Assembly (NCBI GenBank): GCA_019931185.1
Contig: JAINDK010000012.1
Span: 1-64,000, forward strand
Source: Bryobacter sp. CoA8 C33
GTDB taxonomy: Bacteria > Acidobacteriota > Terriglobia > Bryobacterales > Bryobacteraceae
Direction of reading: 5' to 3'
Length of the DNA stretch: 64,000 bases
Under the pieces are notes generated by a model. That model ran no database searches. It saw only the letters and a list, made by a program, of their open reading frames with translations, and was not told where the DNA came from. The position numbers and the translations under genes are program-made. Below, piece by piece: positions 45,457 through 56,276 of this stretch (its first letter is position 1; every line of letters begins with the position of its first letter).

Positions 45457-47895
45457 ATGCTGCAAATTGTTTCCGGCGTGCTTTTTCTGCTCCTGCTGCC
45501 GGTTGGGCTGAGCGCACAGACGAAGCTCTCGGGCCAGGTGACCGATCCGCAAACGAATCCGATTGCGGGGCGCGTGAGCCTCTATCCGCCGGGCGCGCTA
45601 ACACCGTTGATCGCCACGACCGACAATCAAGGGGTTTACCGCTTTGAAAATCTGGCGGCGGGCGCCTACACGGTGGAGGTGGAAGCAGCCTCGTTCCGGC
45701 GCATCAGCCGCACGCTGCGGATTGAAAAAGACCAAAGGGAAGCCACGGAGAACTTTGAAATGGCGATTGCCGGCCTGACGCAGACGGTGGTGGTGACAGC
45801 AACGGGCGAGGCGCAGACGATTGACCAGACGGCCAAGGCGATCAGCGTGATTACGAGCGAGGAAATCAACGATCGCAACGAATACAATCTGGCCGAGATT
45901 CTGAGAAACGTTCCGGGGCTACAGGTTCGCAATCTGGGGGGGCCGGGGGCGCTGACGCAGATCCGGATGCGGGGGCTTCGTCCGGATGCCTCGGCGGTCT
46001 TGGTGGACGGGATGCGGTTTCGTGACCCGACTACGACGCAGGGAGACGCTACGAGCTTCATGGCGAATCTGACCTTCGTCAACGCGGGGCGTGTGGAAGT
46101 TCTGCGCGGCAGCGGGTCTTCGCTGTATGGGTCCAATGCCGTGGGCGGGGCGATCAACATGGTGAGCGACGAGGGGGGCGCGCCAGTACATGGGATGATT
46201 CAGGCCGAGGGGGGCGGATTGGGGTTTCTGCGCGGGCGGGCATCGCTTGCGGGAGGATTCCGCGAGAATCGCTGGACCTATTCGCTCGGCTTTACCCATC
46301 TGAACGTCATGGCGGGGGTGGACGGCAACGATGCCAACCGTTCGAATGGCGGCCAAGGGTTCCTGCGCTACAGCCTGAGCGACCGGACGCGGGTCTCGGG
46401 CCGTTTTTACGGGGCCAAGGACTTCCTGCAATCCAACATCACGCCGGCCACGACGGGAATCCCGGCGGGAAACTTTCCCACGACAGGAGTGATCCCATTC
46501 ATTCCGCTGCCGCAGGCGCAGGTGCGCAATCTGGTGACCGGACAGCCGGTTTCCCACGGAAACGCCACGGTCGTGCCGGGACGGGATGACCCCGACAACC
46601 GCCGGGAGAGCGCCTTTTCGACCAGCGCCGTGCGGCTGGAGCACCAGTTCACCACGAAGGTGAACATGCAGGCGAATTATCAGTATCTGACCACGAACCG
46701 GATTTTCTCCAACGGTCCGGGCGGCATCGGCTTTCAGCCGGCGGCGACCAATGTGACCAACCCCGGGGGCTACATCCATACGCTCGATTGGCGGGTGAAT
46801 GCGCAGGTAGCACGCTGGTATAGCTTGAGCGGCGGCTATGAGTTTGAGCGGGAGTTCTTCAATGACCGGCAGAACAACAACCTGCCGGCGCCGCGCACGA
46901 TTGTTGTCAGCGGTCGGATCCGCCAGAATTCCAATGCTGTATTTGTCGCCAACCAGCTTTCGCTATTCAAGGAGCGGCTGCTGATCTCGCTTTCCGGTCG
47001 GATGCAGGACTTCCGGCTTGCCACGCCGGTCTTTCAGGCTCAGGGCGTGCGCAATGTATACGACGGATTGCAAATACCCAATCCGCCGCGCGCCTGGACC
47101 GGCGATGTTTCCATCGCCTACCTGCTGGCCTCGACCGGAACCAAATTGCGGACGCACATCGGCAATGCCTATCGCGCGCCGGCGCTTTATGAGCGCTTCG
47201 GGGGCGGGTTTTTCAACAACCCGGCGACGGGAAACGTCAACTTCACGCCGTATGGGGACCCGCGCCTGTCGCCGGACCGCTACAACACCTACGATATCGG
47301 CATCGATCAGTACTTGTGGCAGTCGCGTATCCGATTGTCGGCAACATATTTCTATAACCGCATCAAGCAGTTGACGGCCTTCGACTCGGCGGGCCGGATC
47401 ACGGCCGCCACCGATCCGTTTGGGCGCACGAGCGGCTACCTGAACGGGGCGGGCGGGATCTCGCGGGGGGTAGAGTTCGGCTATGAAGCCCGGCTCACTC
47501 GCAGCACGACGATGCAGGGCTCTTACACGTTCACAAATGCCGTCAGCGATCGCGACATACAGGTGCCGAACTTTTGGTTTGCCCTAACCACGCCGCGGCA
47601 CACGGCCAGTTTTGTGGTCACGCAGCGCATTGGCAAGCGCGCGGATCTGACCTTCGACCTGTTCCGCGGCGGGCAGTATTATGTACCGTTTTTCGCGGTA
47701 AATCGTACGCGGGCCTTTCTCTCTCCCGGTTATACGAAAGGAGATGTGGTGGGCGGGTACAAGCTATGGTCCGGGGACAAGCGCAACGTCCGGCTTTACG
47801 GCAAGGTGGAGAACGTATTCAATCAGCTTTGGTACGAAAATGGCTGGCTGGTGCCGCAGGCCTGGGGCATCGTGGGATTGAGCTTCAGCTACTAG
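45457..47895 (+). CDS. TonB-dependent receptor with N-terminal carboxypeptidase-regulatory-like domain
   Basis: The 812-residue outer-membrane receptor starts with a signal peptide (LFLLLLPVGLSAQ), then a CarboxypepD_reg domain (about 25-105: SGQVTDPQTNPIAGRVSLYPPG), a plug (QTVVVTATGEAQTIDQTAKAIS, then NVPGLQVRN and RGLRPDASAVLVDGMRFRDP) and a 22-strand barrel ending FSY. The plug and barrel resemble siderophore/vitamin B12 (BtuB-like) receptors, more typical than the SusC type. It converges on the CbiZ-CobN operon with one base between stop codons. No cobalamin riboswitch was found upstream. Confidence 0.92.
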   Translation: MLQIVSGVLFLLLLPVGLSAQTKLSGQVTDPQTNPIAGRVSLYPPGALTPLIATTDNQGVYRFENLAAGAYTVEVEAASFRRISRTLRIEKDQREATENFEMAIAGLTQTVVVTATGEAQTIDQTAKAISVITSEEINDRNEYNLAEILRNVPGLQVRNLGGPGALTQIRMRGLRPDASAVLVDGMRFRDPTTTQGDATSFMANLTFVNAGRVEVLRGSGSSLYGSNAVGGAINMVSDEGGAPVHGMIQAEGGGLGFLRGRASLAGGFRENRWTYSLGFTHLNVMAGVDGNDANRSNGGQGFLRYSLSDRTRVSGRFYGAKDFLQSNITPATTGIPAGNFPTTGVIPFIPLPQAQVRNLVTGQPVSHGNATVVPGRDDPDNRRESAFSTSAVRLEHQFTTKVNMQANYQYLTTNRIFSNGPGGIGFQPAATNVTNPGGYIHTLDWRVNAQVARWYSLSGGYEFEREFFNDRQNNNLPAPRTIVVSGRIRQNSNAVFVANQLSLFKERLLISLSGRMQDFRLATPVFQAQGVRNVYDGLQIPNPPRAWTGDVSIAYLLASTGTKLRTHIGNAYRAPALYERFGGGFFNNPATGNVNFTPYGDPRLSPDRYNTYDIGIDQYLWQSRIRLSATYFYNRIKQLTAFDSAGRITAATDPFGRTSGYLNGAGGISRGVEFGYEARLTRSTTMQGSYTFTNAVSDRDIQVPNFWFALTTPRHTASFVVTQRIGKRADLTFDLFRGGQYYVPFFAVNRTRAFLSPGYTKGDVVGGYKLWSGDKRNVRLYGKVENVFNQLWYENGWLVPQAWGIVGLSFSY

Positions 47896-47896
47896 C

Positions 47897-49102
47897 TCAA
47901 CGTTTGGCGGCGGGGGCGGCGTCGATACCGGCTTCTGGCCAGCGGTCGATCCAACCAAGGGCAAGGCCTTCGATGAAAGGGCCGACTTTGTCGGTGGGCT
48001 CGTAGCGGATTTTTGCCCAGAAGCGAGCCCAGGATTCGGGCTTGCCGGCGATGGCGACGCCGGCGCTGGCCGCCTGGTCGCGGAGCGTCTCTCCGGCGCC
48101 TTCGGCAGGCAGAGTGCCGTATTGTAAGCGGTCGAGCACGGCGGCATAAGCAAACGCGGCGGCGGCCACGCGCGGCTCCCACAACAAAGCCATCTTGTTT
48201 TCCTTGAGCAGTTGGAAGTAGACGGGCGGGAGCTTTTGTTCGAGGCGGGCGAGCAATTTTTCTTCCGTGAGGCCGAAGCGGCTCAAGGCGTGAGGGATGC
48301 TGCGGGTGTGGCTGCGCTCCATGCCGTTCTGCCAGCGCAGCGCCTCGACGGTAGCTTCGCGCACGGCATTGCCGATCAGCTCGCCCAATTTGGTGTGCGG
48401 TCCGGCCCAGCGGATCTGGCGGGCGGCAGGATCCACGGGCGAGGCGATGATGAACTGATCGGTACCGGTCCCGGTGGCGAGATGGGAAGAATAGCGGCTG
48501 GCCACGCCAAGCTCGAGCAGGGCGCTGGTCTTAGCTTCCGCCATGGTAACGCTGGCACGCTCCAGTGCCGCCGGGGTGAGAGGAACATTGAGCAGCAGGA
48601 TGGTATTGATGGTGCCGGAAACGGGCTTGATGTACTCCATGCCCTTTTCGCCCTCGTACCACTGGGCGGGGTCGCCGGGGCGGGTGGCGTTGCCTTCGAC
48701 GCCCGCGGTGACGAAGGCGTCGACGCGCAGGCCGCGAAACTCGAAGCTCCGCCGCCCGAGATAATTCATATTGGCGGCTGTACCCATGATTGCGGTGCGG
48801 GCTGGATCGAGATTGAGTTCACGGGCCACGAGGTCGTGATACTCCTCCTCGCTCATCCGCGCGATGAGATTATGGCGCTCCATGTGCATCCGCGCTTCCA
48901 TGCTCTGGTGGTTGACCAGATGCGTTACCGTCTCGCTAAGGCCGCCAACGCGGCCGGAGGTGGAGACGACGCGGTGTGGCTTGTTCAGCTGCACGACAAA
49001 ATAGCGGCCCTGGCGCGAGGCGGAAAAAAGGGCTGTGTCGACCAGCGTATTCTGAGCACCGGCGCAATGCGCAAGCAACAGGACGGGCAAAAACAGACGC
49101 AT
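47897..49102 (-). CDS. cbiZ: Exported CbiZ-like adenosylcobinamide amidohydrolase with extra C-terminal domain
   Basis: The 401-residue protein has a signal peptide (MRLFLPVLLLAHCAGAQ), then a CbiZ domain at about 45-255 with VTAGVEGNATRPGDP, GTINTILLLNVPL, ASVTMAEAKTSALLELGVAS and HLATGTGTDQFIIASP. CbiZ family enzymes remove the aminopropanol arm from adenosylcobinamide to salvage corrinoids, normally in the cytoplasm with about 200-230 residues. This one is exported and carries about 145 further residues of unknown function. AGGAG precedes the ATG at 49102. It is 16 bases after the CobN-like gene and ends the operon. Periplasmic location is inferred from the leader. Confidence 0.8.
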   Translation of the reverse strand: MRLFLPVLLLAHCAGAQNTLVDTALFSASRQGRYFVVQLNKPHRVVSTSGRVGGLSETVTHLVNHQSMEARMHMERHNLIARMSEEEYHDLVARELNLDPARTAIMGTAANMNYLGRRSFEFRGLRVDAFVTAGVEGNATRPGDPAQWYEGEKGMEYIKPVSGTINTILLLNVPLTPAALERASVTMAEAKTSALLELGVASRYSSHLATGTGTDQFIIASPVDPAARQIRWAGPHTKLGELIGNAVREATVEALRWQNGMERSHTRSIPHALSRFGLTEEKLLARLEQKLPPVYFQLLKENKMALLWEPRVAAAAFAYAAVLDRLQYGTLPAEGAGETLRDQAASAGVAIAGKPESWARFWAKIRYEPTDKVGPFIEGLALGWIDRWPEAGIDAAPAAKR

Positions 49103-49118
49103 GGTGAATCTCCTGGGA

Positions 49119-52100
49119 TCAGCTTCGCGCACCCGGCAAACCGGAGCGGTTTTCCCAAACAGCGCCAGCGGCCGTCAAGGCCAGCAATACGCCGAGCCAG
49201 CCCCAGGCGATGGGAAGCGCGCGGGCCGGCTGCGTGCGGGCCAGCTCGATGATTTTCTCCTTCATGGCAAAGCCGGTCACGTTGTTCGAAGGCGGGGGAG
49301 CGGGCCGCGGCGGGGGTGGCGGGGACTGCATGGCGGGGCGGGAAGCCTGCCTGACGGCCTCGCGCAATTCCGGGCTCGATTTGGCGAAAACCTGGGGCGA
49401 CCAGCGTGTCGCCTTGCCAACGACTTTGCCAAATTGCCGCAGGTCGAGCTTGCCGAGGCCGCTCACGAGCGGCGCCATTTCGCCTACAAACTGCTGCAGC
49501 TTCTGGTTGCCGCAAGTATTCGCCGAACAGGCGATGCCATGCTTGGCCACGCTGCGCACGTACTCGCGCAGCAAGGTCGAGCGGTCGGCATCGCTGAAGC
49601 GGTATGAGCCCTGGCGGTCTACCTCGAGCATCCGCGCCAGTTGGTTCTGCCGGGCGTGGGGATTTTCTTTTTCAAAAAACTTTTCGAGCTCGAGGCCATT
49701 CTTGTCGGCGACATAGGTATCAAAGGTGGTTTGCCAGAAAGAGCCGTCCATCTGCTCCTTGGTGGTGGCCTGAAAGCCATAGAGATGTTCGACTTCCCGG
49801 AACATCTCGCGGGCGCCGGCATAACCGGAGCCTTTCATGTGCTCGATCCACTTGGGGTTCCAGAGGCGCTGGTTCATCTCGGTGGCGAGGAAAGTCTTGA
49901 GATCGACCATCTTCTCGCTGCCCTGCTTGCGCAGGTTATGAATGTAGAATTCCGGCGCCTGACCACCGTTGACGAATTTCGATGCGGCGGCCATGCCGCC
50001 GGCGTAACTGTAGGTGTCATCGTTGTCGAGGGCGCCATAGAGATTGCTGGAGCGTGAGAACAGTACGGTTTCATTGCCCTTGAGTTGCTCTTCGAGAACC
50101 TTGGGGGCGCCCTCGCCCCAAACGTTTTCGCCAAAGGCGAAGTTCATGTAATGCAAGTAGAGATTGGCGACGCCCCCTTCATTGCCGGCGTCGCGGCTGG
50201 ACTCGACCATGCGGTCGACGCCGATCGAATAAGACCCGGGCTTGTTGCCGAAAACGCGGGCGCGGGCCAGACGTTCGGCTTGGCGGGCATCCATGCCCTG
50301 GGCGACAAGGGCCTTGCGGACCTGTTCATCATGGCGCGAGAGAGCATTGTTTCCAGCCGCGGCGGCCAGCCGGGCGGCACGGTCGAGCAGATTGATCTTG
50401 TCGCCAAAGCCGTCGCGGTAAATGCCGCTGATGTTGATGACGACATTCACGCGCGGGTGTGTCATGGCGGAATCGGGAATCAGCTTGACGCCATCGACCT
50501 GGTTGCGGGAATTCCAGGTCAATTCGATCCCCATGAGATGAAGGGCCATCGCCTCCATGGCGCCGTGATGAGTATCGGTTTCGCCGTACCACAGCATCAT
50601 GGAGACCTTTTCGGGGTAGCGGCCATGTTCCTTGCGATAGCGGGCGAGGGTTTCATCGGCCATTTTGCGTCCGAGAACCCAAGCCTCGCGGGTCGGGATG
50701 AGGGTAGGGTCGAAACCGAACTGTTTGCGGCCGGTGGGCAGCCCGCCGGGGGTGCGCAGCGGCTCACCGAGCGGGCTGCCCGGCAGATAGCGCCCATTGA
50801 GTACGTCGACAATGGCATCGACTTCGCGAGTGGGAGAAAGGCGGAGGTTGGCGATCCACTTGCGGCCTTCGGCCCACTGGGTGTGAATCTTATCGCGCAG
50901 GGTGGGGCTGAATTCACCGCCCAAATGTGGTTCGCGGCCATGAAAGATGGCCTCGGCCCAGGCGGGCGCCAGGCCGCGGATCAGCGGCGTTTCCGCTTCG
51001 TTGAAGCCGAAGCGAAGAAAATTCTCGAGCGCTTCGATCTGTACATTTTCCACCGGCAGTGTCCCGAGGGCGTGGATCCCGGCCGGCATGGGGCCGTCCT
51101 GAACCTCGGCGACGAATTGCTCCAGCTTCTGGCGCCACTCGGGGACGGGCGTCTTGTCGAATTCAAACTTCAACTGCTTGTCGAGTTGGAGGCCAGCGGC
51201 CAAGCCGGCGACTGTTTTCTCGTACTGTGCCGCTAATTCGGGATCGCTACCCAGTTTGTCGATCCATTGCCGCAGGGCGTTCTTGAGCGGGACGATATCG
51301 GAGCGAATGCCGCTTGGCAGAAGCAAGGGCGTCAGGTGACTGATCATCACGGCGGCGGAGCGGCGCATGGCCTGCAAGGATTCCCCGTCGCCGTCCATGA
51401 TGTAGTAGTAAGGATTGGGGATCGGCCCCAGCATCGCCTCGGAGTGATCCCAGCCAGCCTGCAAGACCTGTTTGCCGGGAAGCCATTCGAGCGTGCCATG
51501 CCGGCCGACATGCATGATCGCATCGGCCTGGAAAACATGGCGCAGCCAGAGATAAGCGGCGACATAAGAATGCGGAACGGGAATGGTGGTGTCGTGGGTT
51601 GTGTCGATGGCCCGCTCAAAGGTGGAACGCAAAGGCTGAACGCCGAGGAAGATATTGCCATAGCGGACACCGGGCAGGACGAAGAAGTGGCGGCCCTCGC
51701 GGTCACGAATACGCAACATCTCCGATTTTTCCGGCGGACCATACTCCTTGACGATCATTTCCTGGAAGGGTTTCGGTAGCAGGGCGAAGTGTTTCTTGTA
51801 CTGCTCGACCGGGTAGAGGGTCATGCCGCCGCCTTCGATCATCGCGTCGAGCTCGCCGGGGGCCCAGGTTTCGACATTGCGTCCGCTTTTCTCGAGCACG
51901 CGGCGGAGTTCGAGATCACTCGGGCGGCGGTCGGAGGTGACATAGCCGGCTTGGCGTAAACGCTCCACGAGAGTAGCCATGGTGGGGAGCACCTGCAGGT
52001 AGCTGGCCCCAAGATTGCCCTTGCCGGGAGGGTTGTTGTAGTAGACCATGGCAATGCGCTTTTTCTCATTGGGCATATCCTGCAGCGCAATCCAGCGCTG

Positions 52101-53147
52101 CGCGCGCTGGACTGTCATCTGGACACGCTCCGCCACCGGCTGGGTGAAGGTTGTGCCGTCGGGGCGGGTTTCGGTGGTAGCGACCAGAACGGGCTCCGCC
52201 GTCGAGGCCCGCTCGGGCGTGGCGATCTGGCTTGGAACATTGTTGGGCATCAAGCCCCGTAAGCCCTCGCTCCACTCCTTATAGCTCTGCCGGGAGACCT
52301 GCATATTGAGGATGTGCACGCCATGGGATTCGAGCCAGCGGCTATCCTCGGGTTTGGCGATGCCGAGATTAAAGGCGAGGATCAAGCGGAGCGGAGACTT
52401 GCCGCCCTTGCTCAGAAAGGGGCCGAGGGTGTGAAAGGGCCAGCCATAGGCGGCATAGGCGGCGATGCCCTTGGCTTCGAGTTCCGCCAGCAGGGCGTCG
52501 ATATGGGCGAGGTCGCGCTGCTTGATGTTCGTGTTGAACATGGTGAGGGCGACGGCGGGTCCGCCGCTCCGCCAGCGGGGATTGACGCGGGATTGTTCAT
52601 ACCAGCTCAGGAAGTCGGCCAAGTCCTGGAAGTTACGGGAAGCCTTGGGGTGGTAAATGCCGGACTGCGCCACCGGTGTGGGCGGGGGGATCCGCAGCTT
52701 CTTAAGGCCACCGCCTTGCATGTAGAGCCAGCCGAGCAGGCTGGTCAGATTTTCGGAGCCGCCAAAGGACCAATACTGTTCGGCGACATCGGCGCGGGTG
52801 CGGTTCTGGCTGAAGCTCCACTGGCGGGGAAGAAAATACTGAGGCGTGACGACGATAGCGGCGCCGCGCCGGTTGGCGGCCTGTGCCAGGGGGGTCAAGC
52901 CGATCATCATCTGCTCGTCCGGATGGAAGAAGAAGTGGACGCGGGCCCAACGCATTTGTTCTTCCGTGGGTTGCCCGGCGATGTTTTGCAGCTCGATCAG
53001 ACCGGGTCCGTGCTCTTTTTCGAAAGCTTTGAGCGCCTCGCTGAGCACTGGGCTTCCGCCCGCCACGGCCAGGATGCGCACCGGATCGGCGGCCGGCAGC
53101 AAGGCCGCGGTGAGAAAGAAAAGGCTATTGCGTAGATTCCGGTACAT
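49119..53147 (-). CDS. cobN: Exported, membrane-anchored CobN-family chelatase (HmuS-like)
   Basis: The 1342-residue protein has a signal peptide (MYRNLRNSLFFLTAALLPAA), a CobN/magnesium-chelatase H body, and a proline-rich linker before a C-terminal membrane helix (about residues 1310-1332: ALPIAWGWLGVLLALTAAGA). The family landmark HVGRHGTLEWLPGK is intact, with NPYYYIMDGDGESLQA and LWYGETDTHHGAMEAMA. The leader and anchor imply a periplasm-facing enzyme, unlike cytoplasmic B12-synthesis CobN. Bacteroidota HmuS, a heme-handling CobN relative, lies in a similar operon with ExbB-like and DUF2149 genes. No cobS or cobT is present. GGAAG 8 bases before the ATG fixes the start at 53147. Confidence 0.9.
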   Translation of the reverse strand: MYRNLRNSLFFLTAALLPAADPVRILAVAGGSPVLSEALKAFEKEHGPGLIELQNIAGQPTEEQMRWARVHFFFHPDEQMMIGLTPLAQAANRRGAAIVVTPQYFLPRQWSFSQNRTRADVAEQYWSFGGSENLTSLLGWLYMQGGGLKKLRIPPPTPVAQSGIYHPKASRNFQDLADFLSWYEQSRVNPRWRSGGPAVALTMFNTNIKQRDLAHIDALLAELEAKGIAAYAAYGWPFHTLGPFLSKGGKSPLRLILAFNLGIAKPEDSRWLESHGVHILNMQVSRQSYKEWSEGLRGLMPNNVPSQIATPERASTAEPVLVATTETRPDGTTFTQPVAERVQMTVQRAQRWIALQDMPNEKKRIAMVYYNNPPGKGNLGASYLQVLPTMATLVERLRQAGYVTSDRRPSDLELRRVLEKSGRNVETWAPGELDAMIEGGGMTLYPVEQYKKHFALLPKPFQEMIVKEYGPPEKSEMLRIRDREGRHFFVLPGVRYGNIFLGVQPLRSTFERAIDTTHDTTIPVPHSYVAAYLWLRHVFQADAIMHVGRHGTLEWLPGKQVLQAGWDHSEAMLGPIPNPYYYIMDGDGESLQAMRRSAAVMISHLTPLLLPSGIRSDIVPLKNALRQWIDKLGSDPELAAQYEKTVAGLAAGLQLDKQLKFEFDKTPVPEWRQKLEQFVAEVQDGPMPAGIHALGTLPVENVQIEALENFLRFGFNEAETPLIRGLAPAWAEAIFHGREPHLGGEFSPTLRDKIHTQWAEGRKWIANLRLSPTREVDAIVDVLNGRYLPGSPLGEPLRTPGGLPTGRKQFGFDPTLIPTREAWVLGRKMADETLARYRKEHGRYPEKVSMMLWYGETDTHHGAMEAMALHLMGIELTWNSRNQVDGVKLIPDSAMTHPRVNVVINISGIYRDGFGDKINLLDRAARLAAAAGNNALSRHDEQVRKALVAQGMDARQAERLARARVFGNKPGSYSIGVDRMVESSRDAGNEGGVANLYLHYMNFAFGENVWGEGAPKVLEEQLKGNETVLFSRSSNLYGALDNDDTYSYAGGMAAASKFVNGGQAPEFYIHNLRKQGSEKMVDLKTFLATEMNQRLWNPKWIEHMKGSGYAGAREMFREVEHLYGFQATTKEQMDGSFWQTTFDTYVADKNGLELEKFFEKENPHARQNQLARMLEVDRQGSYRFSDADRSTLLREYVRSVAKHGIACSANTCGNQKLQQFVGEMAPLVSGLGKLDLRQFGKVVGKATRWSPQVFAKSSPELREAVRQASRPAMQSPPPPPRPAPPPSNNVTGFAMKEKIIELARTQPARALPIAWGWLGVLLALTAAGAVWENRSGLPGARS

Positions 53148-53481
53148 AGACAACACTTCCATCCGGCAATTGGTAGGCAACGCCGAGGCGGGTGCCGGCT
53201 CCGCTCTTCTTCTCCGGCGTCAGTTTCTTCACTTTGATTTGTTTCTTGTCCTTCTCGACAATTTCCATTTCCCCGGTCTGAGTATTTTTCTTGACAATGG
53301 TGAACTGCGAGTTGGGGTCCATCAACTGTGTGAGCGAGAAGGCCTGGATGAGAGCCACCATGAGGCCGACGGCGAAGACGATCGAGGCATCGAAGAGGTT
53401 GGCCACACCGGCTAGGGGGTCTTCGCGATGCACACTCGTGATGGCGGCGCCGCGCCGGCGCTTACGCGTGAAGGCGCGCAT
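53125..53481 (-). CDS. DUF2149 membrane protein (HmuV-like)
   Basis: The 118-residue protein has one membrane helix near residues 32-50 (SIVFAVGLMVALIQAFSL) after a basic N-terminus. A beta-rich tail contains MDPNSQFTIVKKNTQTGEMEIVEKDKK, then GTRLGVAYQLPDGSVVYVPE. This matches the DUF2149 pattern known as a partner of ExbB-like and CobN-like genes in Bacteroidota hmu operons. It may take the place of ExbD/TonB in passing energy to the chelatase. It overlaps the ExbB-like gene by 20 bases and the cobN gene by 23, indicating tight coupling. The start at 53481 was placed at MRAFTRKRRRG. Confidence 0.85.
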   Translation of the reverse strand: MRAFTRKRRRGAAITSVHREDPLAGVANLFDASIVFAVGLMVALIQAFSLTQLMDPNSQFTIVKKNTQTGEMEIVEKDKKQIKVKKLTPEKKSGAGTRLGVAYQLPDGSVVYVPESTQ

Positions 53482-54145
53482 GGCGGCTTTCTCCCGCGGT
53501 TTGCGCCTGCCGGGCGGAGGCAAGCAATTCGCACAGATGTTCCATTTCTTCCATGTCAATCCGGAACCAGCGCTCGCGCACCAGCGTGATGACATAGGCG
53601 ATGCCGCTCATCACGAGGCCGCAAACCACGGCGCCAAAACCCACCACGAGATGGCCGACCATGCCGCCCATGTCGCCCCCCAGAAGGGCTTGCAGAGCCG
53701 GTCCGAGGGGGATGATGGTGCCCGCCAGACCAAGCATCGGCCCCAGCCGGACCAGAGCGCGGGAGAAATCGAGCCGCGCGGTGGCGCGGCCTTCCTCCGA
53801 GCGGAGAATCTGCTCGAGGATCAGATCAAAGTGCGTGCCGGCTTCGAGGCCTTCGCGCTGTTTTTCGAGAGCGCGCCAGAAGCGTTGCAAGGCTTGGCTC
53901 ACGGGCACGCCATTGAGGCGGTCCGCCGAAAGGGAAGAACGGGCAAAGCCGGATTCGAGCGCGAGCCCGAGGGCATTGAGATCCGTGCGGCGGTCGGTCC
54001 GCTTCTGCCAGGCGTTGGCAATCAAACGGCCCAGCTCGATCAGGCTCCAGATGAACAGCAGGATGAGCGAGATGGCGACAGGCCAAAAGAAAAGGTTGGA
54101 AAGCTGGTAAAAGAGTTGGACGGTTAACTCGTAGGGCGAATTCAT
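53462..54145 (-). CDS. MotA/TolQ/ExbB-family proton channel subunit
   Basis: The 227-residue protein has three membrane segments: SNLFFWPVAISLILLFIWSLIEL at about 16-38, LGPMLGLAGTIIPLGPALQAL near 140, and VVGFGAVVCGLVMSGIAYVITLV near 175. The second carries the family signature for the channel (LGLAGTIIPLGPALQAL). It is the first gene of the chelatase operon, downstream of a promoter-like region with two palindromes. No exbD or tonB gene follows; DUF2149 occupies that place, so it probably powers a chelatase-linked process and not a classical TonB system. Confidence 0.9.
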   Translation of the reverse strand: MNSPYELTVQLFYQLSNLFFWPVAISLILLFIWSLIELGRLIANAWQKRTDRRTDLNALGLALESGFARSSLSADRLNGVPVSQALQRFWRALEKQREGLEAGTHFDLILEQILRSEEGRATARLDFSRALVRLGPMLGLAGTIIPLGPALQALLGGDMGGMVGHLVVGFGAVVCGLVMSGIAYVITLVRERWFRIDMEEMEHLCELLASARQAQTAGESRHARLHA

Positions 54146-54157
54146 GTATGAATCTTT

Positions 54158-54205
54158 GCTAAATCAATTTAGCCTCAGTATAATCCGCGAGCGCTGAAGA
54201 TTCAG
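54158..54205 (-). promoter_or_regulatory. Promoter and paired operators of the chelatase operon
   Basis: Immediately upstream of the ExbB-like start (54145) lies a perfect palindrome, GCTAAAT-CA-ATTTAGC, at 54158-54173. A -10-like box (TATACT on the minus strand) sits at 54177-54182, four bases away, so the palindrome would cover the transcription start. A second palindrome, CTGAA-GA-TTCAG, at 54194-54205 lies in the -35 region. The arrangement suggests repression, perhaps by a Fur/DtxR-type metal regulator. The palindromes and box are read directly; the regulator is inferred. Confidence 0.55.
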
Positions 54206-54244
54206 GATAAGTCCCATGAGCGGACGAAAACAACTCGTCAGCGG

Positions 54245-55327
54245 TCAACGTTGGCCTTGGGTGACCGATTGCGCGGAGCGTTGGCGGCGCCACCACATCC
54301 AGACCCCCGTGGGCGCGAGCAGAGCGAGGGCCAGCCCGATTGCGCACCAGAGGATTTGAACCGGGAGGCCGCCGAAGACACCGAAATGGAAGCCGCTCAG
54401 CCAGCCAAGAAAGCGGTCGCCAGCGGGCCGCTCGGGCAGAGCTTGCCGGAGCAGGACGGACCCCGTGCGCGGATCGAGCGTCACGCTTGAGACTTGGTGG
54501 AATTGAGCGAAGCTGCCTTCGCGAAAAGTTACGCGAAGGGGAAAGCGAGGATCGGGAACCGGGAAGCGATGAATCGACTTGCCGGGAAAGGACTGTTGCG
54601 CCAAATCCATGAGACGCCAGAGGGAAGGGCTTTGGGCGGGAGCGGGATTGAGTGAGGGCAGCTTGATCTCCGGCGTCCGCTGCATCCAACGGCTAACGGC
54701 GGCGACGTACTGTTTCGACCACGTGTAACAAGCCCCGGTGAAGGCCAAGCCGGTAATGAAAAGCGCCGAAGCCGCCCCGAGGGCGTAGTGACAGAACCGT
54801 GGACGGTCATGCCGCCAGAGTGCGGGCAGAGTGCGGCGGCGGGGCCATAAGAGATAGAGACCGCTTGTGGTAAGCAGCAACAGGCCCATGGCGCCGTAGC
54901 CGTTGGCCAGCCGGCCGGGTTGCGCCCAAAGCAGGTTGGTGTGGAGCGTTTCCACCCAGCCCAGCCAACCGGCGCGTGGATCACGGGTACCGATGATTTG
55001 TCCTGTCGCCGGGTCGGCGTAGACCTCAAGGGAGGCGCCGGGGCGCAAGAGAAAAATCATCCAGTAGGGCATCCGGTCGTGGGGCCAGGTGAAGCTGAGC
55101 GGCCGAAAGCCCGGGTAGCTCTGCCGAACCTGTTCGAGCACGCGCCCGGGGTCGGCGCCAAAGGCCGGTTGAGCGCCGGTGTGGAACTGAGGGTGAAGCA
55201 GAGCGTTCAGATCATCCTTGAAGACGATCACGGCCCCGGACAAGCCAATCAGAAAAGCGTAAACAGCCAACAGCAAGCCGAGCCAGAGATGCAGCCGGGC
55301 AAGGAGATAACGGATTTTTCCGCTCAT
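54245..55327 (-). CDS. PepSY-domain membrane protein
   Basis: The 360-residue protein has four membrane helices: one at about 10-35 (LHLWLGLLLAVYAFLIGLSGAVIVF), two in the middle and one near the C-terminus. Its large periplasmic PepSY domains include VLEQVRQSYPGFRPLSFTWP and VYADPATGQIIGTRDPR. The pattern WLGWVETLHTNLLW is typical of the PepSY-TM family, linked to iron-siderophore reduction. It lies 99 bases upstream of the chelatase operon on the same strand and could be transcribed with it or on its own. It probably reduces or supports release of a metal from a captured complex; that is inference. Confidence 0.85.
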   Translation of the reverse strand: MSGKIRYLLARLHLWLGLLLAVYAFLIGLSGAVIVFKDDLNALLHPQFHTGAQPAFGADPGRVLEQVRQSYPGFRPLSFTWPHDRMPYWMIFLLRPGASLEVYADPATGQIIGTRDPRAGWLGWVETLHTNLLWAQPGRLANGYGAMGLLLLTTSGLYLLWPRRRTLPALWRHDRPRFCHYALGAASALFITGLAFTGACYTWSKQYVAAVSRWMQRTPEIKLPSLNPAPAQSPSLWRLMDLAQQSFPGKSIHRFPVPDPRFPLRVTFREGSFAQFHQVSSVTLDPRTGSVLLRQALPERPAGDRFLGWLSGFHFGVFGGLPVQILWCAIGLALALLAPTGVWMWWRRQRSAQSVTQGQR

Positions 55328-55361: not shown

Positions 55362-56213
55362 TTAGGCGAGCAAACCCTTGCAATAGTCGAAGCACTTTTT
55401 CACTTCGACCTTGGAATCGGCGCCCTTGTACTCGTACTCGATGTTCGCGGGGAACTTATACTTCTTTTTCGCCATCAGTTCCAGTACGGCCTTGATGGGC
55501 GTGTCGCCCTCGCCGAAGGGCATATTCGGGCCCTGGTTTTTCTTGCGGTCCTTGAGGTGGATGCAGACCTGACGGTTGGCGGTCTTTTCGAGATAAGCAA
55601 TGGGGTCGAAGTTGGCGGCCCAGAAGTGGCCGATGTCGAGATTGATGCCGATGTATTTGCTGGTACCCTTCATGGCTTCGGCGAAGTCGTCGGGTGTGGC
55701 GAACTCATTCGGCTTGATGTTGGAGTGATTGTGCATGCCGACATAGACCTTGGCTTTGGCGGCAAAGGGGTCGATGCGCTTGGCGGTGCTTACGTTCGAA
55801 CTGGCGGTGAGACGGTTGACGCCGAGCGCCTTGGCGAATTCGAAGCCGCGCTCGACCTCCTTGTCGGAGAAATCATCGCGGAAGCTGTAGTTGTAGGCCC
55901 AGATCTCGATGCCGGCCTCGTCAAGCTTCTTGCGTACGGCTTCAAAGTGGCTCAAGGGCACGGTTTCGCGCCACTTGCGCATTTCGGCGCGATCGCGCAA
56001 ACGCGGCTCGACGTGGCCGGAGAACAATTCAACGGAACCGATGCCGATTTCTCTCATCGCGGCGATGGCGCCGTCGAGGTCGCGGTCGCGAAAGCTGTAG
56101 CTCTGCAGACCGATCGTGACACCCTTGAAGGTGGAATTGATTTTCGCGGCCGGCAGCAGAGTGGCCGAGGCAGCGCCGAGAGCGGCAGCCGAAAAACTTC
56201 TGCGTGTGAACAT
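55362..56213 (-). CDS. Exported sugar phosphate isomerase/epimerase-like TIM barrel
   Basis: The 283-residue protein starts MFTRRSFSAAALGAASATLLP, a twin-arginine-like leader. The barrel includes SVELFSGHVEPRL, EIWAYNYSFRDDFSD, VYVGMHNHSNIKPNEF, GINLDIGHFWAANFDPI, QVCIHLKDRKKNQGP and FPANIEYEYKG, with metal ligands in the usual order. Substrate unknown. The start is 56213; an in-frame ATG 18 codons upstream (56267) would leave a less natural leader. Confidence 0.85.
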   Translation of the reverse strand: MFTRRSFSAAALGAASATLLPAAKINSTFKGVTIGLQSYSFRDRDLDGAIAAMREIGIGSVELFSGHVEPRLRDRAEMRKWRETVPLSHFEAVRKKLDEAGIEIWAYNYSFRDDFSDKEVERGFEFAKALGVNRLTASSNVSTAKRIDPFAAKAKVYVGMHNHSNIKPNEFATPDDFAEAMKGTSKYIGINLDIGHFWAANFDPIAYLEKTANRQVCIHLKDRKKNQGPNMPFGEGDTPIKAVLELMAKKKYKFPANIEYEYKGADSKVEVKKCFDYCKGLLA

Positions 56214-56276
56214 GGGCCTATTGTATGACTTCAAGATGGGGTTTGCGGCAAGCAGGCCCGCGGGCATGGCTTTATC

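Follow-up and report, generated by a model that had tools for sequence, protein, structure and literature searches.

Exported, anchored CobN-like proteins accompanied by an ExbB-like protein, a DUF2149 protein and a TonB receptor are known from the hmuYRSTUV operons of Bacteroidota, which encode HmuS (PMC12583661, PMC13227078, PMC10434189) and in which hmuU and hmuV are the ExbB-like and DUF2149 genes (PMC10434189). HmuS is active with NADH and has no need of ATP, its pocket residues of note being the motif HFG(T/A)HG with His538 and the motif LSLDHxxEFMGG with His1209 and Glu1212, and the insertion in its domain IV (780-898) holds 21 methionines (PMC12583661). BtuS was proposed by Rodionov et al. 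in 2003, as cited in PMC6460266, as a third kind of CobN-related protein, exported, anchored and predicted to serve metallo-tetrapyrrole salvage; the tested B. fragilis BtuS1 and BtuS2 concern heme iron (PMC6460266). The set of exported CobN, ExbB and DUF2149 is already on record for HmuS and BtuS (PMC6460266, PMC10846266, PMC13227078). CbiZ is likewise known (PMC3541065), as a bacterial pseudo-B12 or archaeal cobinamide amidohydrolase. It cleaves the amide bond adjoining the aminopropanol linker, with the enzyme of R. sphaeroides cutting pseudocobalamin and not cobalamin (PMC7733943), and in Chlorobium cbiZ adjoins cobalamin transporters (PMC8620254). The locus described here lies in a 64,000-nucleotide stretch of DNA from the soil bacterium Bryobacter sp. 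CoA8 C33 (the window) and combines an exported CobN-family protein with an exported CbiZ. It is a variant of the known iron-from-heme system, apparently aimed at corrinoids and extended by an exported cutting enzyme. The genes concerned are the following.

45457-47895, plus strand: TonB-dependent receptor with an N-terminal carboxypeptidase-regulatory-like domain (Pfam Plug and CarboxypepD_reg), putatively in a BtuB-like role
47897-49102, minus strand: exported CbiZ, adenosylcobinamide amidohydrolase family (PF01955, 181 bits, cut-off 27), with a leader at about residues 1-16
49119-53147, minus strand: exported, C-terminally anchored CobN-family protein of the corrin type, BtuS-like (PF02514, 862 bits)
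53125-53481, minus strand: DUF2149 protein, HmuV-like, with one membrane helix and then a periplasmic part (PF09919, 99 bits)
53462-54145, minus strand: MotA/TolQ/ExbB-family channel protein, HmuU-like (PF01618, 30.4 bits, cut-off 22.9, and alignment)
54245-55327, minus strand: PepSY_TM membrane protein of the periplasmic-reductase superfamily (PF03929), a possible electron donor

Open reading frames and Pfam matches agree with the gene set, order and strands given in an earlier note on this DNA, which had proposed an envelope system that captures and dismantles tetrapyrroles. The stop codons of the receptor and CbiZ genes lie 1 base apart; the ExbB-like and DUF2149 genes overlap by 20 bases, the DUF2149 and CobN genes by 23 bases, and 16 bases separate CobN from CbiZ, the gene starts behind these figures being the analysts' choice. 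CobN carries the leader MYRNLRNSLFFLTAALLPAADP and the C-terminal membrane helix ALPIAWGWLGVLLALTAAGAVW, and CbiZ the leader MRLFLPVLLLAHCAGA, followed by Q at the cleavage site AGA/Q, all called by eye rather than by a trained predictor. The earlier reading of an envelope tetrapyrrole system with both CobN and CbiZ exported is supported. ExbB-DUF2149-CobN-CbiZ stand in identical order in a second species, a Bryobacter metagenome-assembled genome (MAG; locus L002), in which the receptor gene is divergent from the ExbB gene; a genome with the CobN position of L002 is listed in the genus of the window in the CobN survey. The identity between the two loci is 73% for CbiZ, 69% for CobN and 65% for the receptor. 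Since the same order is found in a second species, the arrangement is conserved, more than chance would give. The PepSY gene, directly upstream in the window as the note had it (99 bases from the ExbB-like gene), has no match inside the 21 kb of L002 and therefore falls outside the shared core, of which it was ruled out as a component.

Among the surveyed genomes, the full set is limited to these two species of one genus. The CbiZ survey covered 396 genomes of the window's phylum (10 with a match) and 150 of its family (10 with a match), besides a scan of genome contigs, which extended no further than close relatives and yielded 2 loci. The DUF2149 survey comprised 396 phylum genomes, 11 with a match and 8 above the cut-off. 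CobN was surveyed in 237 family genomes (50 with a match) and in 387 genomes of the phylum of L003, an Opitutae MAG treated below (45 with a match), where the matches other than L003 reach at most 40% identity over part of the protein. Left out of the CobN comparison were L044, where DUF2149 and ExbB lie at the edge of a contig and no CobN was seen, and the sub-cut-off DUF2149 matches L045-L047, with no CobN nearby.

The closest PDB match of the window's CobN is HmuS (9d26, E 1.7e-117), and the two proteins have in common the C-terminal motif CSxxxCxNxxL and His538. The pocket differs at the positions specific to HmuS. HVGRHG takes the place of HFGTHG, which retains His538 and changes Thr537 to Arg, and LDNDDTYSYAGG stands at LSLDHxxEFMGG, with Asp in place of His1209 as in CobN, so that neither His1209 nor Glu1212 is kept. 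CobN of L002 likewise has Arg at position 537 and Asp at 1209. The Met-rich insertion is lacking, the stretch of 257 residues that separates HxGxH from LPTGR containing 5 Met. A quick tree built from 50 CobN rows places the window and L002 inside a 23-row Bryobacteraceae clade (Shimodaira-Hasegawa-like approximate likelihood ratio test, SH-aLRT, 100), apart from HmuS, which clusters with L037 and L201. R537 occurs in 24 of 25 rows of the window clade (the remaining row is not covered), position 1209 is D in 20/25 and E in 5/25, and the superfamily-conserved His538 is retained in 24/24 covered rows; these residue counts include L182 and L183, which are shorter than 1000 residues and stand outside the tree and which, like L184, end at contig ends. 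Leader-like hydropathy is seen in 20 of 21 clade rows (L002, L162-L181), the start of L164 having been picked too far in. Another Bryobacteraceae group, L185-L191, has T537, H1209 and E1212 in 7/7, and thus both pocket types coexist in the family. In view of the pocket residues, the tree position and the lacking insertion, a heme-only reading was rejected. The corrin-type pocket and the clade apart from HmuS, together with the receptor kinship given below, bear out the earlier preference for a corrinoid over heme, and the substrate is very probably a corrinoid.

The likeness to the aerobic cobaltochelatase CobNST extends to PF02514 and to the pocket motifs HxG[RK]H and LDxDD, whereas the leader, the C-terminal anchor and the ExbB/DUF2149 neighbors set the window's CobN apart. 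CobS/CobT ATPase partners of the CobNST type are not among its neighbors, a statement limited to the neighborhood, as no genome-wide search for them was made.

Further CobN groups came to light in the same comparison. The exported CobNs of L185-L191 stand with ExbB and DUF2149, contain 0-3 cysteines and are candidate heme de-chelatases outside Bacteroidota. L037:1754-10168, from an acidobacterium, encodes a close HmuS-type CobN (HFGTHGSLEFTP, LSLDHVYEFMGG) with ExbB and DUF2149. L038-L042 form a third exported group with the mixed pocket T537, D1209 and M1212, and PepSY lies near L038 and L040. The CobNs of L193-L200, from the phylum of L003, carry the variant CCDHTCNN of the C-terminal Cys motif, with R537 in 6/8 and with ExbB and DUF2149 adjoining CobN in 7/8 (no match in L193).

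A quick tree computed for 50 receptors puts those of the window and L002 into a 9-row set (SH-aLRT 99). All other rows of this set come from B12-salvage loci, namely L020, L060/L192 (one gene) and L063-L066, and the receptors of L063, L064, L065 and L066 start just behind cobalamin riboswitches. Receptors paired with other CobNs of the clade group elsewhere, and the window locus therefore seems to have been put together from a CobN module and from parts of salvage loci. The presence of a TonB receptor beside CobN (18/20 loci, L162-L181) is by itself not diagnostic of the substrate.

CbiZ of the window has a full PF01955 domain and retains 40 of the 43 columns that are invariant in 14 leaderless aligned relatives (L002, 39), the losses being C93, A142 and T188. 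It differs from known CbiZs in having a leader and no Cys after it. A clear hydrophobic leader is present in the window and L002 only (21 loci and the window examined; L019 uncertain), and the full-length CbiZs beside cbiB show no clear leader. Both exported forms have 0 Cys after the leader, versus 4-9 in the 14 leaderless relatives; short CbiZ-like forms from salvage operons (L063-L066), outside this comparison, have 1-4. The substitution frequencies between the two cbiZ genes are 0.265, 0.176 and 0.579 at codon positions 1, 2 and 3, which indicates purifying selection; codon-position counts were used with the synonymous rate saturated (not computable for CobN). The earlier note had allowed for a CbiZ that is catalytically dead across the family. 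The retained columns and the purifying selection give no indication of this, although an invariant residue, Cys93, is lost. The loss of cysteines would fit periplasmic life but could also touch function. As for the leader being functional, the zero Cys count in both species speaks for it, but low Cys is not exclusive to leader-bearing forms, as L019 may show. The loss of Cys93 takes something from the case for a CbiZ that works outside the cytoplasm, and this location is still considered likely.

The AlphaFold2 model of CbiZ (mean predicted local distance difference test 81) matches the self-processing amidohydrolases DmpA, BapA, NylC, ThnT and OAT with Z scores of 12-15, the next fold scoring 7.4. 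This kinship with the DmpA/NylC/ThnT fold may point to the catalytic residues; Thr164 of the GTIN motif may be the nucleophile, by analogy with DmpA. No relevant sequence homologues of CbiZ were found in the PDB. In the CbiZ tree the exported pair has a stem of 0.92 and stands next to leaderless forms, with no clear position among them. At L019:6733-9638 a CbiZ-type protein of uncertain start overlaps a TonB receptor gene. Taking an upstream start would give it a hydrophobic stretch, and Cys is absent from the matched part and from all that follows. It might represent a third exported form, or might show that a low Cys count does not require export. Two genes beyond it lies a NifH-like frame of 726 residues.

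A fused-query search found BtuC, CobS, CobT and PduO in the genomes of the window and L002 and no match for CbiB, CobU and CobQ in either; the same-genus genome G497 has all seven. Profile searches gave no match for CbiB (PF03186) in the window's genome and none for CobU (PF02283) in either genome, with G497 positive. Both genomes are drafts, that of the window being 97.66% complete. A MetH-like frame of 1185 residues and, on the PduO contig, a mutase-type B12-binding domain indicate that the organism uses B12. The known CbiZ route rebuilds the cobamide with CbiB and CobU. Because CbiB, CobU and CobQ were not found, cobyric acid formed in the periplasm would be a dead end for the cofactor, and the lack of a visible rebuilding route leads to a catabolic reading. 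As a separate observation, CobS and CobT lie close together in both genomes (G000:C134, G543:C2; L093, L097), with a CobC-like frame between them in L097.

The reading favored here, held tentatively and near an even balance, is a cell-envelope corrinoid-processing module that clears unusable corrinoids and perhaps recovers cobalt. The TonB receptor, to judge from its kinship, would carry corrinoids into the periplasm. Exported CbiZ would then cleave the amide holding the aminopropanol/nucleotide arm, giving cobyric acid, and by analogy with the enzyme of R. sphaeroides its substrates would be cobinamide and pseudo-cobamides rather than cobalamin. The anchored corrin-type CobN would bind the trimmed corrin and move the metal, most likely outward, powered by ExbB-like/DUF2149 energy and possibly by electrons from PepSY. 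Intact cobamides would proceed via BtuFCD to MetH and the mutase, and the trimmed corrin would not be rebuilt, for want of any match to CbiB, CobU or CobQ. The parts of this scheme differ in standing. A catabolic outcome is quite possible but stays somewhat doubtful. Metal removal by CobN is a doubtful possibility. The complete form, extracytoplasmic dismantling in which CbiZ trims cobamides to cobyric acid and an anchored de-chelatase driven by the proton motive force frees the cobalt, is rather unlikely.

Relatives of the window's CobN keep company with B12 genes at several loci. In G497, a cobalamin riboswitch (106.9 bits; L179:11674-11883) lies 36 bases before the exported CobN frame. The exported CobN of L180 is last in the one-strand run cobQ-cbiB-cobD-cobT-cobS-cobC, of which the cobD, cobT, cobS and cobC families were confirmed with Pfam. 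A CobN of the clade lies near cobS, cobD and cbiB in L170, and in L181 the surroundings of another include a cobalamin riboswitch, cbiB and a cbiZ without a leader. In L003, an anchored corrin-type CobN and an ExbB-like protein stand inside a B12-salvage locus with cobQ, a TonB receptor, btuF-, btuC- and btuD-like genes, a leaderless cbiZ, cbiB, cobA, cobU, a cobD-like aminotransferase and cobS (gene families checked with Pfam); its DUF2149-like frame is weak (tblastn, E 4e-5). Riboswitch scans at the gathering threshold took in all 23 loci L162-L184. None turned up in L037-L043 or L193-L201. The earlier note had named as a refutation that homologous loci always sit in a different pathway, such as ordinary B12 synthesis. 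For relatives this is partly so, as some related exported CobNs lie among or close to salvage genes, or follow a cobalamin riboswitch. CobN with an exported CbiZ next to it, however, was seen only in the window and L002.

Such company gives room to an assimilatory role, in which CobN, in the periplasm, would put cobalt into metal-free corrinoids or exchange the wrong metal of mis-metallated ones and CbiZ would do no more than trim foreign arms before uptake. The riboswitch before related exported CobNs and the salvage run around them point to the gaining of B12, but cobyric acid released by CbiZ could not be rebuilt without CbiB and CobU, neither of which was found, and the full-length CbiZs next to cbiB show no clear leader. 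Canonical CobN inserts cobalt and the window's pocket is CobN-like. Hydrogenobalamin from a Chromatium strain was converted to B12 via cobalt insertion (PMC7693184), whereas HmuS, the nearest tested exported homologue, removes metal (PMC12583661). An assimilatory role is judged improbable on balance.

A number of points weigh against the favored clearing module. CbiB, CobU and CobQ could be unassembled or replaced by unrelated enzymes, and the retained CobS and CobT need a source of GDP-cobinamide. A direct corrinoid marker occurs in no more than 4 of the 23 loci L162-L184. No cobalamin riboswitch was found at the window locus or in L002, and a search of the whole genome of the window, in which 150 of 433 candidates were scored, was negative as well. 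A riboswitch that shuts a relative off at plentiful B12 suggests that the clade obtains rather than destroys B12. The next rows outside the receptor set are L038, which lies beside a T537 CobN, and L023. Both exported CbiZs lack Cys93 (present in 14/14 leaderless relatives) and Cys68 (13/14), and the CbiZ leader of L002 has no positive charge. The removal of cobalt from a corrin is very hard. From nickel corrins, too, the metal is very hard to remove (PMC7693184).

The Asp of the NLFD motif opens the membrane helix of DUF2149 in 27/27 aligned matches. We take this residue to resemble the Asp of ExbD. The ExbB-like and DUF2149 proteins are the same pair as HmuUV and likely serve as the energy partner of CobN, as the earlier note had proposed. 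The PepSY protein matches PDB entry 7abw (phmmer E 9.5e-12), which we take to be FoxB, and its histidines 13, 129, 180 and 314, in helix-like stretches by eye, are candidate heme ligands. It thereby resembles PepSY_TM reductases of the FoxB/FpvG type, FoxB being a periplasmic reductase (PMC13038864), but this PepSY type had no match beside the module in L002.

The resemblance of ExbB/DUF2149 to a TonB-type motor, with its ExbD-like Asp, also admits a role devoid of metal chemistry. CobN-ExbB-DUF2149 would be a force-driven corrinoid binder that strips corrinoids off the receptor, removes upper ligands or hands over to BtuF, and CbiZ would act as quality control. His538 is nevertheless kept in every covered row of the clade and HmuS is an enzyme, and 21 of the 23 loci L162-L184 have no ExbB/DUF2149 match beside CobN (L182 and L184 being truncated at contig ends), so the motor is not general; such a binder has only a small chance of being the right explanation. 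A heme or porphyrin iron system, with CobN as an HmuS orthologue beside an unrelated CbiZ, could call on the top PDB match, the CSxxxCxNxxL motif and the hmuUV-like partners (PMC10434189) but is highly improbable, given the pocket without H1209/E1212 or HFGTHG, the few Met at the insertion site, the place of HmuS elsewhere in the tree with a separate HmuS-like group in Bryobacteraceae, and a CbiZ gene that is co-directional, 16 bases off and conserved in two species.

Set against HmuS, the locus thus differs by R537, D1209, the exported CbiZ and the absent Met-rich insertion, and against the tested BtuS proteins by the corrinoid links of its clade and again the exported CbiZ. HmuY and HmuT are not among the 7 window genes scanned with Pfam; no genome-wide search for them was made. 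The claim that no described system has the full set holds for exported CbiZ and its pairing with exported CobN, on which no paper was found in a literature that included few subscription papers, but not for the known set of CobN, ExbB and DUF2149. Exported CobN proteins that have been tested act on heme iron; their scaffold, found here with a corrin-type pocket and in corrinoid-linked surroundings, suggests heme and corrinoid branches, perhaps separable by two pocket residues. The occurrence of exported CbiZ in genomes with no visible rebuilding of cobyric acid leads one to ask whether corrinoids are destroyed in the periplasm of soil bacteria. If they are, this would matter for the supply and use of B12 in soil communities. 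CobN and CbiZ would form a small enzyme pair for a chemically hard step, in which cobalt enters or leaves a corrin with no ATP-driven partner involved. If the dismantling is true, it would be, to our knowledge, the first case of an enzyme taking cobalt out of a corrin, and also the first of a cobamide being broken down outside the cytoplasm.

Beyond the PepSY gene, window positions 55362-56267 encode an AP_endonuc_2 protein whose leader, judged by eye, is twin-arginine-like. It was rejected as a CbiR (23.5 bits against a cut-off of 105), a ribulose-phosphate epimerase model giving the better match.

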